Assembly: GCA_026709365.1 (NCBI GenBank)
Contig: JAPOTD010000037.1
Span: 23,696 to 56,748, forward strand
Source of the DNA: Gammaproteobacteria bacterium
Lineage (GTDB): Bacteria > Pseudomonadota > Gammaproteobacteria > Pseudomonadales > Azotimanducaceae
DNA: 33,053 nucleotides
Reading direction: 5' to 3'
Below the pieces are notes generated by a model that was given only the letters and a program-made list of their open reading frames with translations, ran no database searches and had not been told where the DNA came from. Made by a program: the position numbers and the translations under genes. Within the stretch, counting starts at the first letter, position 1, and every line of letters starts with the position of its first letter. This document shows positions 1 through 30,673 of this stretch, piece by piece.

Positions 1-341
1 GCTGCCCCAGTACCGTTCCCTTTTCCGCTATAAACGAATGACCGGACGCCCTCGATGCGCACCGCGGCGCTCTCGGCCGATGCCCCGCCGGCCACCCAAG
101 CGATGAGTTCCGTCATGGACCCCCGTACGACCGCATCCGCCTCGCCAAGGGTTTCCGCCGAAACCGCGATGCGCGAGCGCTGCACGGTCAGCGTGGCCGA
201 CTTCCTCGGCAGCAGGCATTCGATGCGGATGCATCGGCCCTCTAGGTCGGCGAGGCGCGCCTTGGCATCGGCGTCCAAGTTCAGCAGGGCGTTGCCGAGC
301 GTTTCCGCCAAGTCGGCCAACAAAGCGTCGAGCGGATTCAT
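1..341 (-). CDS. ubiJ: UbiJ, SCP2-domain ubiquinone biosynthesis accessory factor (3' end outside window)
   Basis: UbiJ is a lipid-binding SCP2-domain protein of the cytosolic complex that makes ubiquinone. The visible 113 residues begin MNPLDALLADLAETLGNALL and continue with a segment typical of the family (LDADAKARLADLEGR) and an SCP2-like core containing WVAGGASAES. The ATG overlaps the ubiE stop by 4 bp (ATGA), which decides the start and implies translational coupling. The gene order ubiE-ubiJ matches the common gammaproteobacterial order, with ubiB expected next. Odd point: after the motif VRIEG the last ~16 residues (VRSFVYSGKGNG...) do not resemble the family, where an acidic residue and a helix would be expected. 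This may be divergence, an insertion, or an end-of-sequence artefact. Identification rests on context plus partial similarity. Confidence 0.75.
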   Translation of the reverse strand, partial: MNPLDALLADLAETLGNALLNLDADAKARLADLEGRCIRIECLLPRKSATLTVQRSRIAVSAETLGEADAVVRGSMTELIAWVAGGASAESAAVRIEGVRSFVYSGKGNGTGA

Positions 342-6326: not shown

Positions 6327-6368
6327 GGCAAGCTTAGTGTGGTGCTGTCGGCGATGAAGCGCAACATG

Positions 6369-6450
6369 CGCACCCGCTTTGCGGGTGCGTTGGAGTTTCG
6401 CTTGCGCGAAACTCCGCGCTCGCGTCGGTCGGACTCGATATGTTTGTGAA
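6369..6450. repeat. Compound palindromic repeat, copy 1
   Basis: First hairpin: CGCACCCGC (6369-6377), loop TTT, GCGGGTGCG, a perfect 9-bp stem. Second hairpin: GGAGTTTCGC (6392-6401), loop TTGC, GCGAAACTCC, a perfect 10-bp stem. It is followed by CGCGCTC...GGTCGGACTCGATATGT, which closely parallels the sequence after the same two hairpins at 26896-26975. The shared architecture over about 80 bp shows these are two copies of one element rather than independent terminators. Confidence 0.8.
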
Positions 6451-6456
6451 CCGGCG

Positions 6457-6639
6457 GGTAGTGGCTCAGTTTAACTTTGGCTGGGCTTTAGCGGCAGGCG
6501 CTTTGACGGGCGTCACTGCGAGGGCAGGATGCCCTCGCTCCGGGGCGAAACGCCCACCTCAGGTGAGACCCCCCGGAGCGAGGGCGTCCCGCCCTCGACC
6601 GAATCACGACGGCGACGTGAGTCAAAATGAGCCACTACT
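6457..6639. mobile_element. 183-bp MITE-like element flanked by an 8-bp target duplication
   Basis: The ends are inverted repeats (GTAGTGGCTCAGTTTAACT at left, GTAGTGGCTCATTTTGACT as reverse complement at right, 2 mismatches in 19). A second, internal inverted repeat of 27 bp with 2 mismatches pairs 6519-6545 with 6571-6597. The element is bracketed by a perfect direct repeat AACCGGCG at 6449-6456 and 6640-6647, as expected of a target-site duplication. It has no coding capacity for a transposase. The intact duplication suggests a fairly recent insertion. It ends 15 bp before the candidate rpmE -35 box. Parent IS family not identified. Confidence 0.8.
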
Positions 6640-6926: not shown

Positions 6927-6956
6927 CCGACGCCGCGCTCAAGACCGGCCACCCCA

Positions 6957-7111
6957 GAGTTTCGCATCAGCGAAACTCCACGAACCGAAGGTTCGCTTTC
7001 GCGCCAGCAAAACTCCACCCCGACCCGCGCAGCGCGTCCACGTTGCCGCGGCGGCCCAAGCGCGGAGTTTCGCCCCAGCGAAACTCCAACCGGACCCGCG
7101 CAGCGGGTCCG
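6957..7111. repeat. Compound palindromic repeat, copy 2 (two units in tandem)
   Basis: Four hairpins follow one another after rpmE. GAGTTTCGC/GCGAAACTC (6957-6978, 9-bp stem, loop ATCA) is followed by CGAACC/GGTTCG (6981-6995, loop GAA). After a degenerate stretch come GGAGTTTCGC/GCGAAACTCC (7064-7087, 10-bp stem, loop CCCA) and CGGACCCGC/GCGGGTCCG (7091-7111, 9-bp stem). The first pair matches the arrangement at 22882-22918 and the second matches copies 1, 4 and 5 in type. A hairpin here could also act on rpmE mRNA ends, but no U-tract follows. Confidence 0.8.
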
Positions 7112-7173
7112 CGTTCAGCACCCATTCATCCGATTCCCGTTAGAATCAGCGTTCCGACCGCGAGCCAGACTCG

Positions 7174-12083: not shown

Positions 12084-12730
12084 TTCCGGCCGTAAACCTG
12101 TTGCCTTGGCGGGACCGGCAGCGTCGCCGCCGCAACCAGGTGTTCGGCCTGCAGTTGGGCGGCGCATTGACCGCGGCCTTGGCGTTGATCGGGTCATTCG
12201 CGTTGCACCTCAACGCCGTGGCTGATGGCCAGCGCCAGCGCAATGACTTTCTCCAAGAGAGGATCGCTCAATTTGACCGGCGGATTGAAGAGGTCGAGCG
12301 CCTGCGTCACCAACAGCGCGAGTTGAGCGTTCGCATCGAGGCAATTCAGGCGCTTGCAGCTCGACGCGGCGCTTTCGCGCGCCTGTTGGAGGGGTTTGTC
12401 AGCACGCTGCCCGCCGGCGTTTACTACCAAGCGATGGACCTGCGCGGGGATCTGCTCACCCTGCGCGGCGTGGCGTCGAGCAACCAGGAGGTCTCGGCGC
12501 TCATGCGCAATCTGCAGGAGCACGTCTGGTTTGCGGAGCCGAGGCTGCTCAACCTCAAGGACGCCATGCTGGGCGGGCTGTCCGGAGGCAGTGCCACAAA
12601 TGGCCCAGGCAGCGCCATAAATGGCCAGGGCAGCGCCTTCAGCATGACCGTTCTTCGGGCGCCCTTGAGTCCCGTCCGGCAGTCCGCCCTGAACTCAGCC
12701 GTGGCGGCTGCCTCAGCGTCGAGCCAGTGA
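12080..12730 (+). CDS. pilN: PilN, inner-membrane type IV pilus alignment protein
   Basis: PilN is a bitopic inner-membrane protein that binds PilM through a short N-terminal motif and pairs with PilO. The sequence starts MIPAVNLLPWRDRQRRRRNQ, which contains the conserved INLLPWR-type PilM-binding motif. A membrane helix follows (about residues 25-45), then a coiled coil and a ferredoxin-like periplasmic domain (LPAGVYYQAMDLRGDLLTLRG). GTG start, 4-bp overlap with pilM. Odd: residues ~169-187 read GGSATNGPGSAINGQGSA, encoded by 2.4 copies of a 21-nt tandem repeat (12587-12637). This appears to be an insertion ahead of the last strand and is shared with the pilP/pilQ junction. Confidence 0.93.
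   Translation: MIPAVNLLPWRDRQRRRRNQVFGLQLGGALTAALALIGSFALHLNAVADGQRQRNDFLQERIAQFDRRIEEVERLRHQQRELSVRIEAIQALAARRGAFARLLEGFVSTLPAGVYYQAMDLRGDLLTLRGVASSNQEVSALMRNLQEHVWFAEPRLLNLKDAMLGGLSGGSATNGPGSAINGQGSAFSMTVLRAPLSPVRQSALNSAVAAASASSQ
12587..12637 (+). repeat. 21-nt tandem repeat block inside pilN
   Basis: Two full units (12587-12607 and 12608-12628) and a 9-nt partial unit (12629-12637) fit the consensus GGCAGCGCCATRAATGGCCA plus one base. In frame they encode GSATNGP-GSAINGQ-GSA. An equally long block of the same consensus lies at 13862-13912. Confidence 0.9.
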
Positions 12731-13329
12731 TCATGGAACACCCCGATTGGTTGCGCGTTGACTTGGCCAGCCTCGACTGGCGCGACCTTGGCACTTGGCC
12801 GGCTTGGCTGCGGGCCGCGCTCGTGACGGGGCTGTCTGCCGCAGTTCTGGCGGTTGGCGGTTGGGCACTGCTCAGCGGCATGGCGGCCAGGAACGAGGCG
12901 CTTGAGGCCGAGGCGCGGACGTTGCGCGCCCGGCTGGCCTCCGGCGCGGCGCAGGTGGCTGATCTGGACCAGCTCAGGACTCAGGAAGAAGCGCTTGAAG
13001 CGACCTTTGCGAACTGGCGTGAGCGGCTCTTCGCCAACTCTGAAACAGCCGCCTTGATCGAACACATCACCGAAGCGGCCGAGGGCAGCCATCTGGCCAT
13101 TGCGGGCATCGACCTCGCCGACAGCCGTCGCCTTGACCACTACGCTGAACTGCCGGTGAGCCTTCGAGTCTTGGGCACCTATCACCAAGTCGGCGCATTC
13201 GCAGGCCGCTTGGCCAACCTTTCCCGCATTCTTACCCTGCACGACTTCGATATCGAATCCGCGGAACCGGGCCCTGAGCTCAGGGTGCGCATTGACCTGA
13301 AAGCCTATCTGCGCTTGGAGGAGCCATGA
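12727..13329 (+). CDS. pilO: PilO, inner-membrane type IV pilus alignment protein
   Basis: PilO forms a heterodimer with PilN in the periplasm and contacts PilP. The 200-residue protein has a short N-terminus (EHPDWLRVDLASLDWRDLGTWP), one membrane helix (about residues 27-50), a coiled-coil stretch (NEALEAEARTLRARLASGAAQVADLDQLRTQEEALEATF) and a C-terminal domain with YAELPVSLRVLGTYHQVGAFAGRLANLSRILTLHDF, a well-conserved PilO segment. Start is GTG at 12727, overlapping the pilN TGA; an in-frame ATG lies at 12733. Its ATGA overlap with pilP continues the coupled operon. Confidence 0.95.
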   Translation: MIMEHPDWLRVDLASLDWRDLGTWPAWLRAALVTGLSAAVLAVGGWALLSGMAARNEALEAEARTLRARLASGAAQVADLDQLRTQEEALEATFANWRERLFANSETAALIEHITEAAEGSHLAIAGIDLADSRRLDHYAELPVSLRVLGTYHQVGAFAGRLANLSRILTLHDFDIESAEPGPELRVRIDLKAYLRLEEP

Positions 13330-13874
13330 AGCTCATGACAAAAGCCTGCGCCCTTTGCGTCCTGGCCTTGGCCGCTTGCGGCGGCGGTCAACTCGACGAT
13401 GTCGAGCGCTACGTCGCCGAACTTGAAGCGGACGCCGACGGGGCACTGGCGTCATTGCCGGCGTCCGCCCAACCGCCGCCGGCTGCCTATGAGGCGGGAA
13501 GCGGGCGCAGCCCATTCGACCTGTCGGCGTTTGGCGCAGAGTCGGGTACACGACAGGGCGCCCGCGAAGTTGCGCCCGACTTCAGCCGAGCCAGGCAGCC
13601 GCTGGAGGCTTTTCCGTTGTCCGCCTTGGGCATGGTCGGCACCATCGCCAAGGGAGGAGTTCGCTCGGGTCTGGTGGTCGATGGCGATGGCGCGGTCCAC
13701 GAGGTGGGTGCCGGCGACTACATGGGCCTTAGTCATGGCCGCATCCAACGGATTGGGGAGGCAGCCATCGAATTTGTGGAGATGCTGCCCGACGGCGATG
13801 GCGGCTGGGTGGAGCGCCAGCGCAGCTTGGTGTTGGCTGAGACGGATCCATTGACGGCCGGGACAGCGCCATGA
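13326..13874 (+). CDS. pilP: PilP, type IV pilus inner-membrane lipoprotein
   Basis: PilP is a lipoprotein that joins the PilNO complex to the PilQ secretin. The N-terminus MKLMTKACALCVLALAACGG has a lipobox LAAC, with Cys18 as the expected lipidated residue. A proline/alanine-rich flexible linker follows, including RSPFDLSAFG. The C-terminal beta domain spans about residues 95-170 (LEAFPLSALGMVGTI, VHEVGAGDYMGLSHGRIQRI). The 182-residue length is normal. The final codons and stop lie in a 21-nt tandem repeat block that also provides the pilQ start, and the two genes overlap by 4 bp. Confidence 0.95.
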   Translation: MKLMTKACALCVLALAACGGGQLDDVERYVAELEADADGALASLPASAQPPPAAYEAGSGRSPFDLSAFGAESGTRQGAREVAPDFSRARQPLEAFPLSALGMVGTIAKGGVRSGLVVDGDGAVHEVGAGDYMGLSHGRIQRIGEAAIEFVEMLPDGDGGWVERQRSLVLAETDPLTAGTAP

Positions 13875-13912
13875 GTGGCCAAGGCAGCGCCATGAACGGC
13901 CAGAGCGGTGCC
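13862..13912 (+). repeat. 21-nt tandem repeat block spanning the pilP stop and pilQ start
   Basis: Two full units (13862-13882, 13883-13903) and a 9-nt partial unit (13904-13912) match the consensus seen in pilN. Here the repeat carries the TGA of pilP and the ATG of pilQ. In the pilQ frame it encodes MSGQGSAMNGQSGA. Both blocks in the operon are 51 nt long. Confidence 0.88.
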
Positions 13913-15325
13913 GTGACGATGCGCAGTGCCTGCAAGATGCGCAGCGCCTGCAAGCTGGGACGATGGTTTGGCGCAGCACTCGTCCTATTGGTCCTGACGC
14001 CGGCTGCCGCCGAGCCGCCAGCTCCTACCGATGCCGAGCCGCTGTCCCTGAACTTCCAGGACATCGATGTCCGCGCTGCGCTGCGCGTCATTGCCAATGC
14101 CGCCGACTTCAATCTGGTGGCCAGCGAAGCGGTGTCGGGCCGGGTGACGCTGCGGCTCAAGGACGTGCCTTGGGAGCAGGCCCTTGACCTGGTGCTGCAA
14201 GTGGCCGGGCTCGACCAGCGGCGTTTGGGCGATGTGGTCTATGTGGCCCCGGCGGCGGAAATCGCCGCCGCCGAGCAGCTCCGCCGACGCACGGAGCAGC
14301 AGGCCGCAGCGCTGGCGCCGGTGCACACGGAGCACATTCAAATCGGCTACGCCAAGGCGGCTGACATCTGGTCCCTGTTCAACGACGGCGGACCGCCGGA
14401 AGGCGCCTTTGCCGATCGCGGCCACGCCATGATTGACGAGCGCACCAACGTCATTCTCTACACCGGCACCGCCGCCCAGATTGCGGATTTCCGGCGCATC
14501 GTCAAAGCCCTTGATGTGCCGGTTCGCCAAGTGCTCATCGAGTCCCGAATCATCACCGTCAACAACAATCTTTCGGAGCAATTCGGCATTCGCTGGGGCG
14601 GTGGCGGGATCGACGGCGGCGACGGCAGGGCGTTGCGCTTCGGCGGCTCCTTGAAGACCTTGGGGGAATTGCAGAACGCCTTGGCCAACCCGGCCGGCGT
14701 TGGCGAGATATCGAGCCCGGAAGATCTCGTGGTTGACTTGGGCGTATTGAGCGAAGGCGCGTCGAGCTTAGGCTTGGGCATCACGGGCAACAGCTACTTG
14801 ATCGACTTGGAAATCTCGGCGCTGGCCGCCGAAGGCAAAGCCGAGATCATGGCCCGGCCCAAGGTCATCACCGCCGACAAGTCCCGGGCCCGAATCGAGT
14901 CCGGGGTTGAGATCCCCTACCAGGAAGCCAGCAGCAGCGGCGCCACCTCCACCTCGTTCAAGGATGCGGTGCTGTCCTTGGACGTGACGCCGCGCATTAC
15001 CCCCAACGACCGCATCATCCTGGAAATCAACGTCAAGCAGGACAACGTCGGACGGGTGTTCAACGGCGTGCCTTCGATCAACACCAACGAAATCGAGACC
15101 GAAGTGCTGATCGATGACGGTGAAACGGTGGTGTTGGGCGGCATCTTTCAGACCGATCGCAACTTTGCCACCGAAAGGACCCCGCTGCTGGGCAATCTGC
15201 CCTTGCTGGGACGCCTGTTCAGCCGCACCTTCGAGCGCGACGACAAGCAGGAACTGCTGATCTTCATCACCCCGCGCGTCCTGGCGCCCGACCCGGCCGC
15301 TGGCGATGAAATGAAGCCGGGCTAG
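13871..15325 (+). CDS. pilQ: PilQ, type IV pilus outer-membrane secretin (short form)
   Basis: PilQ forms the outer-membrane pore for the pilus. Domains: a signal peptide best read from the later methionines (M17 or M23: CKLGRWFGAALVLLVLTPAAA), an STN domain (about 56-125: LSLNFQDIDVRAALRVIANAADFNLV), a secretin N domain (~155-220), and the secretin core (about 310-475) ending LLGNLPLLGRLFSRTFERDDKQELLIFITPRVL. At 484 residues it is short: the AMIN peptidoglycan-binding domains usual before STN in PilQ (~700 residues) are absent. The first 27 residues come from repeats: the 21-nt block, then an 18-nt tandem duplication (13919-13954) encoding MRSACK twice. The true start is therefore uncertain (13871, 13919 or 13937). 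Confidence 0.94.
   Translation: MSGQGSAMNGQSGAVTMRSACKMRSACKLGRWFGAALVLLVLTPAAAEPPAPTDAEPLSLNFQDIDVRAALRVIANAADFNLVASEAVSGRVTLRLKDVPWEQALDLVLQVAGLDQRRLGDVVYVAPAAEIAAAEQLRRRTEQQAAALAPVHTEHIQIGYAKAADIWSLFNDGGPPEGAFADRGHAMIDERTNVILYTGTAAQIADFRRIVKALDVPVRQVLIESRIITVNNNLSEQFGIRWGGGGIDGGDGRALRFGGSLKTLGELQNALANPAGVGEISSPEDLVVDLGVLSEGASSLGLGITGNSYLIDLEISALAAEGKAEIMARPKVITADKSRARIESGVEIPYQEASSSGATSTSFKDAVLSLDVTPRITPNDRIILEINVKQDNVGRVFNGVPSINTNEIETEVLIDDGETVVLGGIFQTDRNFATERTPLLGNLPLLGRLFSRTFERDDKQELLIFITPRVLAPDPAAGDEMKPG
13919..13954 (+). repeat. 18-nt tandem duplication near the pilQ start
   Basis: ATGCGCAGTGCCTGCAAG (13919-13936) is followed directly by ATGCGCAGCGCCTGCAAG (13937-13954), one mismatch. 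It encodes MRSACK twice and duplicates a possible start codon for pilQ. Confidence 0.9.
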
Positions 15326-22788: not shown

Positions 22789-22843
22789 TGCCATCTCCAG
22801 CTGCGGGGAAAAGTGGACGCCCATGATAACTGAGCGGGCTGAG

Positions 22844-22941
22844 GAAACATTTCGGAATCCGATCCACGCAACGGTGGCGGAGTTTCGCGTAGCGAAACGC
22901 CAACGAACCGTAGGTTCGCCGCGCCCGCCTCGCCGGCGCGC
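22844..22941. repeat. Compound palindromic repeat, copy 3
   Basis: A 31-nt signature at 22844-22874 (reverse complement contains TTGCGTGG and TTCCGAAATGT) matches 28212-28242 at about 26 of 31 positions. It is followed by a GTTTCGC/GCGAAAC hairpin (22882-22898, loop GTA), a CGAACC/GGTTCG hairpin (22904-22918, loop GTA) and a GCGCC...GGCGC arm pair. It fills most of the 184-bp gap between the transglutaminase-like gene and the thiolase-like gene, both on the minus strand. No other feature is seen in that gap. Confidence 0.8.
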
Positions 22942-22972
22942 AATAGCTGGCGCCGCAATTCGTTGGCATCGC

Positions 22973-26833: not shown

Positions 26834-26895
26834 GACGCTGACCTCCTCGGCAAAAGGGCGGCGAGTCTATCAAAGAAGAGCGAAAAAAGTGAAGG

Positions 26896-26975
26896 CGCGC
26901 CCGCAAAGCGGGCGCGTTTCTAGTTTCGCTGGCGCGAAACTCCGCGCTCATCGCGCAGGTCAGATTCGGAAATGT
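26896..26975. repeat. Compound palindromic repeat, copy 4
   Basis: Hairpin CGCGCCCGC/GCGGGCGCG (26896-26916, 9-bp stem, loop AAA), then AGTTTCGC/GCGAAACT (26922-26941, loop TGGC), then CCGCGCTC and, after a spacer, GATTCGGAAATGT (26963-26975). Order and trailing sequence parallel copy 1 (6369-6450). It lies in the 252-bp gap (26834-27085) between the transglycosylase-like gene and the 3' end of the oxidoreductase gene. Nothing else is apparent there. Confidence 0.8.
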
Positions 26976-27085
26976 ACTTTAAGCCCTCGCAAGTCCGGCG
27001 AATTCGCCGCAGGATCGTTGTCCGGGAACGGCAAGGCAACTCGGATGCATCTTCGTCGGCAAGCCGCGGCCTCGCCGCTAAGGCT

Positions 27086-28212: not shown

Positions 28213-28295
28213 AGTTGCGTGGGTGGGGTTCCGAAATGTCTCTGGGCCCGCGCACCCGCGAAGCGGGTGCGATTGAGTTTCGCTAACGCGAAACT
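28212..28295. repeat. Compound palindromic repeat, copy 5
   Basis: The 31-nt signature (28212-28242, shared with 22844-22874 in reverse orientation) is followed by CGCACCCGC/GCGGGTGCG (28251-28271, 9-bp stem, loop GAA) and AGTTTCGC/GCGAAACT (28276-28295, loop TAAC). The hairpin arms are identical to those of copy 1, but the signature lies on the other side, so the modules are shuffled between copies. Confidence 0.8.
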
Positions 28296-28370
28296 TCACG
28301 CCAGATGTCTTCTGCCTGCGGCTATTTTCCCGGCAGTGCAATAGAATGGGGCGTTTGCGGAGAGCCAACA

Positions 28371-29318
28371 TTGACGGCGAAGGTATTCATCGACGGCCAA
28401 GCCGGCACCACCGGCATTGAAATTTTCGAGCGCCTGCGCCAGCGGCCTGACATCGAACTCCTGTCGGTGGCCGAAGCGAAGCGCAAGGACCCGAGTGCGC
28501 GAGCGCACCTTTTCGACCAAGCGGACATCGCCATTCTTTGCTTGCCGGACGATGCCGCCCGCGAAGCGGCGGCGCTGGCGGAAGGGCGCTGCCGCCTGCT
28601 CGACGCCAGCACGGCCCACCGCACGGCGGACGGCTGGACCTACGGCTTGCCGGAGCTCGCGCCCAGCCAAACGGACGCCATCGCCGCCGCCGATCGGGTC
28701 AGCAATCCGGGCTGCTATCCGCAGGGCTTCGTGCTGTGCGTCCGCCCGCTGGTCGATGCCGGCCTGCTCCCACCGGAGGCGAACTTGACCCTGCATGCCA
28801 TTTCCGGGTACTCCGGGGGTGGCCGGAAGATGATTGAGGCCTATGAGGCGGCCGACGCCGCGCAACGGGACCAATGGGGCGCCCGACCCTACGCCTTGAA
28901 CCTGCGCCACAAGCACCTGCCGGAGATGCAGCGCTACTCGGGCTTGACCAGCCCACCGTTGTTCTCGCCCACCGTGGGCGCTTTTCGCAAGGGCATGGTC
29001 ACCTTGGTGCCGCTGTTCAGGGAGCAGCTGGAAGGCGGCGGCCAAGCTGGGGACGTGGTGGATGTCCTGACCCGAGCCTACCGGGACAGTCCTTTTGTGG
29101 CGGTGTCGCCCTACGGCGATTGCCGTGGCTTGGAAGGCGGCTTCCTGAGCCCCGGTGGCTGCAACGGAACCAACCGCATGGAAATCAGCCTGCTTGGCAA
29201 CGCTCGGCAACTCCTGCTCGCCGCCCGCTACGACAACCTGGGCAAGGGCGCCGCCGGCGCCGCCGTTCAGAACCTCAACCTGATGCTTGGCTGCGAGCAG
29301 ACGCGGGGTTTGGCGTGA
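28371..29318 (+). CDS. argC: N-acetyl-gamma-glutamyl-phosphate reductase, type 2
   Basis: ArgC reduces N-acetylglutamyl phosphate to the semialdehyde in arginine synthesis, using NADPH. The 315-residue length and sequence (VFIDGQAGTTGIEIFERL, LLDASTAHRTADGWTYGLPEL) fit the shorter type 2 (AGPR2) family. The catalytic cysteine is C115 in SNPGCYPQGF and the proposed catalytic histidine is H182 in HKHLPEM. The start is TTG at 28371, preceded by GGAGAG. The frame runs on to 28305 but that part is not family-like. A TAGAAT at 28342-28347 could be a -10 element. GTGA overlap with the aminotransferase gene suggests cotranscription. Confidence 0.94.
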   Translation: MTAKVFIDGQAGTTGIEIFERLRQRPDIELLSVAEAKRKDPSARAHLFDQADIAILCLPDDAAREAAALAEGRCRLLDASTAHRTADGWTYGLPELAPSQTDAIAAADRVSNPGCYPQGFVLCVRPLVDAGLLPPEANLTLHAISGYSGGGRKMIEAYEAADAAQRDQWGARPYALNLRHKHLPEMQRYSGLTSPPLFSPTVGAFRKGMVTLVPLFREQLEGGGQAGDVVDVLTRAYRDSPFVAVSPYGDCRGLEGGFLSPGGCNGTNRMEISLLGNARQLLLAARYDNLGKGAAGAAVQNLNLMLGCEQTRGLA

Positions 29319-30673
29319 AGACCCTCGACGAGATGACCGCAGCCGAACTCGGCCAAGTCGGTGAGCGGGTCGAGCGGGAGCTGGCCCTGCAGCGCGCCAA
29401 CAAGCTCGCGTTGGACTTAAGCCGCGGCAAGCCCAGCCCTGAACAGCTTGACCTAAGCGCTGAACTCAACGCGCCCTTGCCCAGCTTGATCGCCGAGGAC
29501 GGCACCGACGCGCGCAACTACGGCGCCCTGCGCGGCATCCCGGAAGCGCGGGCCTTGGGCGGCGAACTCATGAACGTGGCCGCCGACAGAGTGTTGGCGG
29601 CGGGCAACTCCAGCCTGTTCCTGATGTACCAAGTGGCCGTCACCGCCCTGCAGCGCGGCCTCTGGGGAGACGAGCGCCGCTGGTCCCGCACTCCGCAACC
29701 GGCCAGCTCAAACGCACGAGTTTCGCCAGCGGCGAAACTCGAACGCGCCGCTGGCGGCGCGCCGCCGCCGCGCATGCTGACGCCAGTGCCCGGGTACGAC
29801 CGCCACTTCACGATCTGCGAATCGCTCGGCATCGAAATGATCAACGTGGCCATGCTCGACGACGGGCCGGACATGGACCAAGCCCGGCGGCTCGCCGCCG
29901 CAGATGCTTCGATAAAGGGCATCTGGTGTGTGCCCAAGTACGCCAACCCCACCGGCTGCATCTACGCCGACGAGACGGTGGCGGCCATGGCCGAACTGCC
30001 GCGGATTGCGGCGGCGGACGACTTCGTCGTCTTTTGGGACAACGCCTACGCCGTGCATGACTTCGAGTTTCCCGCAGCCCCCCTGGCCAACCTCTACGAG
30101 TTGGCCTTGGCGGCGGGCACCGCTCGGCACGTGGCCTTGTTCTCATCCACCTCAAAAATGACCTACGCCAGCGGCGGGCTCGGCTTCTGCGGCGGCTCCG
30201 AGGCACTGCTCAACGCCTTGGAGGGAACCTTGAGCCTGATGTGCATCGGCCCGGACAAGGTGGCCCAACTGCGCCACGCCCGCTTCCTGTCCGGCCGCAT
30301 CGAAGAGCACATGGCCGGCCATGCGGCGCTGCTCAAGCCGAAGTTCGCCATCGTTGACCAAGTGCTTGAGGAGGAGCTTGGCGGCTTGGGGCTGGCCCGA
30401 TGGACGCGGCCCAAGGGCGGCTACTTCGTCAGCCTGACCACACCGCCGGGAACCGCCGCCGACATCGTCAAGCAGGCGGCCGACGTGGGGCTCAAGCTGA
30501 CGCCTGCCGGCGCCCCCTTCCCCTACGGACGAGACCCCAACGACGACAACATCCGCATCGCCCCCAGCTTCGCGCCGCTGGACGAACTGGAGGCCGCCAT
30601 CAGAGTGCTGGCCGGCTGCGTTAAGCTGACCGCAATCACCCATCTTCTCGGCAAGCGCCCGGACGGAGGCTGA
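29315..30673 (+). CDS. PLP-dependent aminotransferase (AspT/PF12897-like) with an in-frame palindromic insert
   Basis: A 452-residue fold-type I aminotransferase resembling the Corynebacterium AspT group of aspartate aminotransferases. Family segments: LALDLSRGKPSPEQLDLS, RNYGALRGIPEARALGGEL, TPVPGYDRHFTICESLGIEMI, VPKYANPTGCIYADE and FWDNAYAVHDF, with the PLP lysine K281 in SSTSKMTYASGG. GTG start at 29315 overlaps the argC stop; ATG at 29333 is an alternative. Odd: between LWGDERRW and RMLTPVPGYDRHF there is an extra Ala/Pro/Arg-rich stretch. It is encoded by the same palindromes found intergenically (29717-29761, residues ~135-149, with flanks perhaps 128-151). The frame is preserved and the rest looks intact. 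Confidence 0.9.
   Translation: MKTLDEMTAAELGQVGERVERELALQRANKLALDLSRGKPSPEQLDLSAELNAPLPSLIAEDGTDARNYGALRGIPEARALGGELMNVAADRVLAAGNSSLFLMYQVAVTALQRGLWGDERRWSRTPQPASSNARVSPAAKLERAAGGAPPPRMLTPVPGYDRHFTICESLGIEMINVAMLDDGPDMDQARRLAAADASIKGIWCVPKYANPTGCIYADETVAAMAELPRIAAADDFVVFWDNAYAVHDFEFPAAPLANLYELALAAGTARHVALFSSTSKMTYASGGLGFCGGSEALLNALEGTLSLMCIGPDKVAQLRHARFLSGRIEEHMAGHAALLKPKFAIVDQVLEEELGGLGLARWTRPKGGYFVSLTTPPGTAADIVKQAADVGLKLTPAGAPFPYGRDPNDDNIRIAPSFAPLDELEAAIRVLAGCVKLTAITHLLGKRPDGG
29717..29761. repeat. Compound palindromic repeat, copy 6, inside a coding sequence
   Basis: Arm CGAGTTTCGCC (29717-29727), loop AGC, arm GGCGAAACTCG (29731-29741), a perfect 11-bp stem. It is followed by CGCGCCG/CGGCGCG (29744-29761, 7-bp stem, loop CTGG). 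The core is the same GAGTTTCGC palindrome as in the five intergenic copies. Here it is translated as part of the aminotransferase, without a stop or frameshift. Confidence 0.88.

Follow-up and report, generated by a model that had tools for sequence, protein, structure and literature searches.

The gene for a PLP-dependent aminotransferase in a gammaproteobacterial MAG carries an in-frame insertion of a palindrome from a dispersed repeat family, here called family A, a conclusion that we consider true and well supported. The gene occupies 29315..30673 on the plus strand of the window, that is, the whole 33,053-nt stretch of DNA analysed, which comes from the 3.70-Mb MAG G000; its 452-aa product matches PF12897 (Asp_aminotransf) over residues 7-446 (Pfam 2.8e-130, 435 bits). 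DNA and protein alignments, with the eight genus mates and with 24 loci, showed that the insert is lacking in all eight genus mates examined. Relative to G002, the closest relative for this gene (90% identical), G000 has 57 additional nt (29690..29746, plus strand), which encode TPQPASSNARVSPAAKLER, and 3 nt further 3', amounting to 20 extra codons in a frame that stays open. An exact family A palindrome, GAGTTTCGC-CAGCG-GCGAAACTC, lies at 29718..29740; a search for this palindrome (up to 3 mismatches, 5-nt loop) gave 1 match versus 0.05 expected in shuffles. A second hairpin with perfect 8-bp arms, CGCGCCGC-TG-GCGGCGCG, follows at 29744..29761. The sequence-only reading had proposed just this arrangement, a palindrome inserted without loss of frame and succeeded by another hairpin, and it was borne out on both counts.

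The second hairpin occupies the place of hairpin 1 of family A, the element being read on the minus strand, and the 3-nt spacing between palindrome and hairpin is, by eye, that of other family A copies. Aligned to a 103-nt family A profile, the in-gene copy covers model positions 25-56 (minus strand, E 0.0014 in the window), a match confined to the edge of hairpin 1 and the palindrome, and it misses the E<=1e-3 cut of the profile census described below. The 28 nt at 29690..29717 (minus strand), which the profile leaves unaligned, may by eye be a diverged family A tail. Counted from NSSLFLM to PVPGYD, the stretch that holds the insert is 52 residues long in G000, the longest of the 63 loci measured, and 21-40 residues long in the other 62 (median of all 63, 29); 64 loci had been tried, one without a match, and some genomes entered twice under different locus ids. 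The length of this loop varies naturally and none of the homologues measured is equally long; an equally long segment in homologues without the palindrome, which the sequence-only reading had named as refuting, was thus not found.

The fold of the enzyme is that of the Rv3722c-type aminotransferases (TM up to 0.95 on the target), the closest solved structures being 6u78, 5c6u and 3d6k. An AlphaFold2 model built from 25 sequences has a mean pLDDT of 90, falling to 47-59 across the ten-residue blocks that span residues 121 to 150. This segment lies between helix 100-113 and strand 153-158, and a short helix (138-144), its own confidence being low, is drawn within it. The structural check suggested earlier thus returned a low-confidence loop on an otherwise confident fold. 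NG86 dN/dS was 0.14-0.21 for G000 against four genus mates and 0.10-0.19 for pairs within those four, indicating that purifying selection still acts on the aminotransferase with its insert. We infer that the enzyme is functional with the longer loop. Because the G000 pairs lie at or above most pairs of relatives, its constraint may perhaps be slightly relaxed in G000.

We searched 58 genomes for family A using the pattern GAGTTTCGC-N0-12-GCGAAACTC with exact arms. This returned 186 copies in G000, 45 in G007, 39 in G002, 32 in G008, 25 in G006 and 1 in G004; none were found in genus mates G001, G003 and G005, none in 49 genomes each of another genus, and none with the pattern written backwards. 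Among the genomes searched, family A is limited to one genus and is most numerous in the species of G000. The loop begins with T in one orientation in 170 of the 186 copies (84 loops of 3 nt, 86 of 4 nt), and copies oriented in this way have a common layout: first a G+C-rich hairpin, which comes in several sequence types, then a GTTG-like spacer, followed by the palindrome and by a tail that is near CGCGCTCGTTGCGTGGGTCAGGTTCCGAAATGTTTCTGAGCCCGC. Neighbouring pairs less than 200 nt apart number 33 and are spaced at 73-136 nt. The profile found 204 matches at E<=1e-3 in 999 kb of G000 (reversed-sequence control: 0 at this cut, 2 at E<=1), and a 96-nt consensus is open in four of its six frames. 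Variant arms, GAGTTTGGC..GCCAAACTC, occur 6 times in G000, 6 in G002, once in G006, 11 times in G007 and 8 in G008; we rejected them as a species marker, as they represent a paired arm change found as a minority in five members of the genus.

The window itself holds six further family A copies (near 6393, 6957, 7065, 22880, 26921 and 28276), three of them with one arm mismatch, and these occupy five intergenic gaps, as had been noticed from the sequence. The profile placed them at 6364..6455 (plus strand, E 9.9e-20), 6950..6980 (minus, partial, E 1.7e-6), 7057..7115 (minus, E 2.8e-12), 22835..22945 (minus, E 7.8e-18), 26889..26985 (plus, E 3.5e-21) and 28246..28308 (plus, E 7.5e-13); a degenerate copy lies near 6997-7033. 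At the place aligned to 28246..28308, G002 and G008 carry the variant GAGTTTGGC..GCCAAACTC. Two palindromes of a second family (B, CGAGGGC..GCCCTCG type) are also intergenic, at 6519..6597. Rfam gave no match in the window at gathering scores, and the reading of the repeat as an RNA family was rejected on that account. Short direct repeats around CAGCGCCAT..GGCCA/GGGCAG are present at two places of the window within 12589-13921.

Gene positions were predicted with a home-made hexamer gene finder in 80 stretches of G000 (~1 Mb, predicted coding fraction 0.834), which were picked for holding copies, so that densities do not extrapolate. Of 192 family A copies counted at up to 3 mismatches, only 4 fell inside predicted genes and 188 outside, an extreme shortage given that predicted coding sequence makes up 83% of the sample (binomial P about 10^-139). 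In the profile census, 6 of 204 matches overlapped a predicted gene by at least 25 nt, partial overlaps at gene ends being counted. Copies occupied 14 of 63 convergent, 60 of 252 unidirectional and 63 of 131 divergent intergenic spaces of 60-1500 nt (9/33, 50/134 and 55/105, respectively, for spaces of 150-600 nt). Family A was thus twice as frequent in divergent spaces as in unidirectional or convergent ones in these 80 stretches. A terminator role for the family was not favoured, since copies are not concentrated in convergent spaces.

The sequence-only reading had made its case depend on the repeat also occurring in other genes of the genome, and it does: the four hosts are the aminotransferase, an alpha/beta hydrolase, dnaE2 and, at its 3' end, a phosphopantetheinyl transferase gene. 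The hydrolase of G000 is 30 residues longer than those of G006 and G007 and 21 longer than that of G002 (the site was readable in five of the eight genus mates), and the extra residues precede the LLLIHG motif, around a 90-nt stretch with a family A element; dN/dS was 0.17-0.19 for its G000 pairs and 0.14-0.17 for the others. The dnaE2 product is 46 residues longer in G000 than in G003, with a dN/dS of 0.23 in the one pair computed. Family A peptides differ between hosts (RVSPAAKL, RGVSRQRN and EFRQRETP in three of them) because different frames or strands are read. A further element stands at the N terminus of the gene L105:13297-14445, whose start codon is uncertain and which was hence set aside.

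The reading that we hold to be very probable is that family A is a short, non-autonomous dispersed element filtered by selection, of which one copy persists in frame in a tolerant loop of the aminotransferase. The element would be about 95-105 bp long and consist, in order, of a variable G+C-rich hairpin, a short spacer, the GAGTTTCGC palindrome and a tail of ~45 nt. Most insertions into genes would be purged by selection; the rare survivors would be those that keep the frame, have one of the stop-free frames of the element read and sit where extra residues are tolerated, for instance in a loop. The copy in the aminotransferase would be such a survivor, lengthening a loop that is already variable in relatives. 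Its copy number, its restriction to one genus and the existence of filled and empty sites suggest that family A moves, probably by transposition with an enzyme that would act in trans, and selection rather than target choice is probably behind its rarity in genes. No target duplication could be pinned down: a duplication of 3-7 bp would be possible at the hydrolase site, but by eye these bases overlap the element's own end.

The search for RAYT-type transposases (PF01797) found none in either G000 or G007; the PF01797 ORFs of G002, G006 and G008 stand among palindromes of family B, so that RAYT mobilisation of family A was rejected; G003, which is without family A, has two such transposases. 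As a check for an autonomous partner, the spaces of 350-2600 nt that separate neighbouring copies were tabulated; in the one contig read (L148, with a copy pair with matching loops) nothing transposase-like was seen by eye.

Could the palindrome instead have been born locally, by template switching or hairpin-directed mutation from a hairpin already in the gene? Four genus mates without the insert do bear short perfect palindromes at the same codons, with differing sequences and arms of 7 bp in G002, 8 bp in G008 and G006 and 6 bp in G007; among the stems of the gene this one ranks first by length in G002 and G008, joint first in G006 and fourth in G007, and no stem of 5 bp or more was found at these codons in G001, G003, G004 and G005. 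The four are also those having 25 or more family A copies, and their palindromes may either be what is left of an older palindrome or have arisen by chance in G+C-rich DNA. Yet the two 9-nt arms in G000 are those of a family present in 186 exact copies in the genome, the second hairpin stands by eye at the same distance as in other copies, and a local event would not be expected to hit on the genomic consensus, all of which makes a local origin improbable. The same stems in genus mates, together with the perfection of the palindrome within a coding region, could also speak for a functional insert, that is, an mRNA hairpin or peptide segment kept by selection for regulation, binding or stability. 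This we regard as quite improbable, as genus mates do without the insert, the segment is of low confidence in the model save for the short helix, itself poorly supported, and the peptides vary among host genes with the frame used.

An assembly or binning artefact is worth considering in a single MAG of 144 contigs (95.7% complete) studied from its assembly, without reads. However, the frame is open across the insert, long homologous flanks lie on both sides of it on one contig, and the same phenomenon recurs in the hydrolase, in dnaE2 and in coaBC, which renders an artefact extremely unlikely.

Two further palindrome families, B and C, co-occur with family A. With up to 1 mismatch allowed, family B gave 58 matches in 999 kb; predicted genes held 9 of these, the majority of which resemble chance matches in coding DNA. 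RAYT-like ORFs stand among CGAGGGC..GCCCTCG palindromes at L095, L096 and L097, and mobilisation of family B by RAYT is plausible.

Family C is a 45-nt (15-codon) unit with a GCGAGGGG..CCCCTCGC palindrome. G000 has 33 exact cores, seven of the eight genus mates have 13-51 each and G003 has 0; outside the genus there were 35 in G014 and 1 in G011 (where the backwards control also gave 1), while G018 and G031 had 0, with 1 in the backwards control. A family C profile found 28 matches at E<=0.05 in 999 kb of G000, forming 14 arrays (reversed control, 1). Predicted genes contain eight of the 14, one of these genes being a doubtful 103-aa ORF; seven of the eight are on the coding strand, and three frames are used. 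The share in genes is far above that of family A (8/14 versus 4/192, Fisher P 2e-8), the C arrays being few. Their hosts by Pfam are an enoyl-CoA hydratase, DFP (coaBC), a PF00144 serine hydrolase, MIP, a NUDIX-like protein (match below cut-off) and DnaG, the unit being at the C terminus in MIP and the NUDIX-like protein. The enzyme and transporter genes in which the 45-nt tandem unit is read in frame, internally or terminally, are L160:5725-6642, L153:12139-13509, L159:1635-2846, L135:4692-5573 and L140:4700-5536.

Two family C hosts were compared with relatives. For coaBC, each of the eight genus mates matches the sequence flanking the insert on either side and none matches across it; the G000 protein is 64 residues longer than that of G002, and dN/dS was 0.17-0.20 for G000 pairs and 0.08-0.21 for others. 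DnaG of G000 has 15 more residues than those of G007 and G008, exactly one unit's length and located where family C matches; nearly the whole protein is matched in each of the eight genus mates, the search pattern having missed the six besides G007 and G008. A family C unit has likely been inserted into dnaG of G000. Families meet in dnaE2: at one site G000 has the family A copy and a family B-like palindrome, G008 and G007 have another sequence, palindromic by eye, whose peptide starts with EPSAGEREG, as encoded by family C, and G003 and G004 have no insert (the site was read in these five genomes, L173, L174 and L176 being among the loci, and not in G001, G002, G005 and G006).

The earlier suggestion of a repeat family that creates protein segments does not describe the main behaviour of family A, which is outside predicted genes in 188 of 192 cases and encodes varying peptides, and fits family C better. 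Tentatively, and with somewhat less than even confidence, we propose that the genus has an RPE-like system of its own, in which unrelated families repeatedly enter tolerant loops, family C being frame-neutral and dnaE2 a shared hot spot. If so, tandem expansion of the 15-codon unit would keep the frame while generating added protein segments, those in coaBC, enoyl-CoA hydratase, the dnaG linker (one unit) and others being examples.

Our literature search (titles and starts of abstracts, few subscription journals) found no description of family A or of repeats in this genus. The novelty that had been supposed for gammaproteobacteria does not hold: in-frame REP/MITE insertions have been published for Xanthomonas recB and for dnaE2, the species of the latter not being named in the passage concerned (PMC3733652), and for enterobacterial RU elements, intergenic units of 103-168 bp that sometimes form part of annotated genes whose products retain the RU-encoded residues (PMC2759123). 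Many of the genes reported to hold REPs serve DNA synthesis and repair, dnaE2 among them, and two Xanthomonas species carry different REPs at about the same recB site (PMC3733652). ORFs also run through intragenic ERIC and Coxiella QMITE1 elements, and nearly half of the Rickettsia palindromic elements (RPEs) reviewed lie in ORFs, with a conserved peptide (PMC10969869); RPEs measure 100-150 bp, and different RPE groups occur near each other in orthologues (PMC3767692). In-frame palindrome insertion is thus a known, uncommon route to longer proteins, already published for RPEs and REPs. What the present case adds is a lineage for which we found no earlier report, the presence of several families together and a 15-codon unit.

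To the short list of selfish palindromes that lengthen proteins, this clade adds clean filled and empty sites between close relatives, and the lengthened proteins are apparently still used. How such inserts affect the enzymes can be tested directly by comparing related species that have each insert with others that lack it. In one genome, family A has ~2% of its copies in genes and family C about half of its few arrays, a contrast that could help to tell insertion preference and selection apart.

Compared with known systems, family A resembles REPs in being made of short, mostly intergenic palindromes with a minority in genes, dnaE2 included (PMC3733652). Unlike REPs, it has no GTAG or CGTC tag at the stem, the consensus flanks being GTTG and CGCG, and it is commonest in divergent spaces, whereas REPs are reported to favour unidirectional and convergent ones (PMC3733652). 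It also differs from the GTAG class in that no RAYT was found with it in G000 or G007, the PF01797 loci of G002, G006 and G008 holding family B; CGTC REPs, for their part, are described in the same source as being without a dedicated transposase (PMC3733652). To the enterobacterial RU and ERIC MITE-like elements it can be likened, by description, as ~100-bp units that are intergenic and sometimes in genes (PMC2759123). Unlike RPEs, it belongs to a different bacterial class and has ~2% of its copies in genes with a peptide that is not conserved; family A is set beside RPEs by description, not by sequence. Family C has 8 of 14 arrays in genes, one of them in the doubtful ORF, and uses three frames. 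What it shares with RPEs and their Wolbachia counterparts is the presence of dispersed palindromes both between and inside genes, in frame and in unrelated proteins (PMC3767692, PMC10969869), and, as in the RPE case, the aminotransferase, alpha/beta hydrolase and dnaE2 genes stay open across the insertion.
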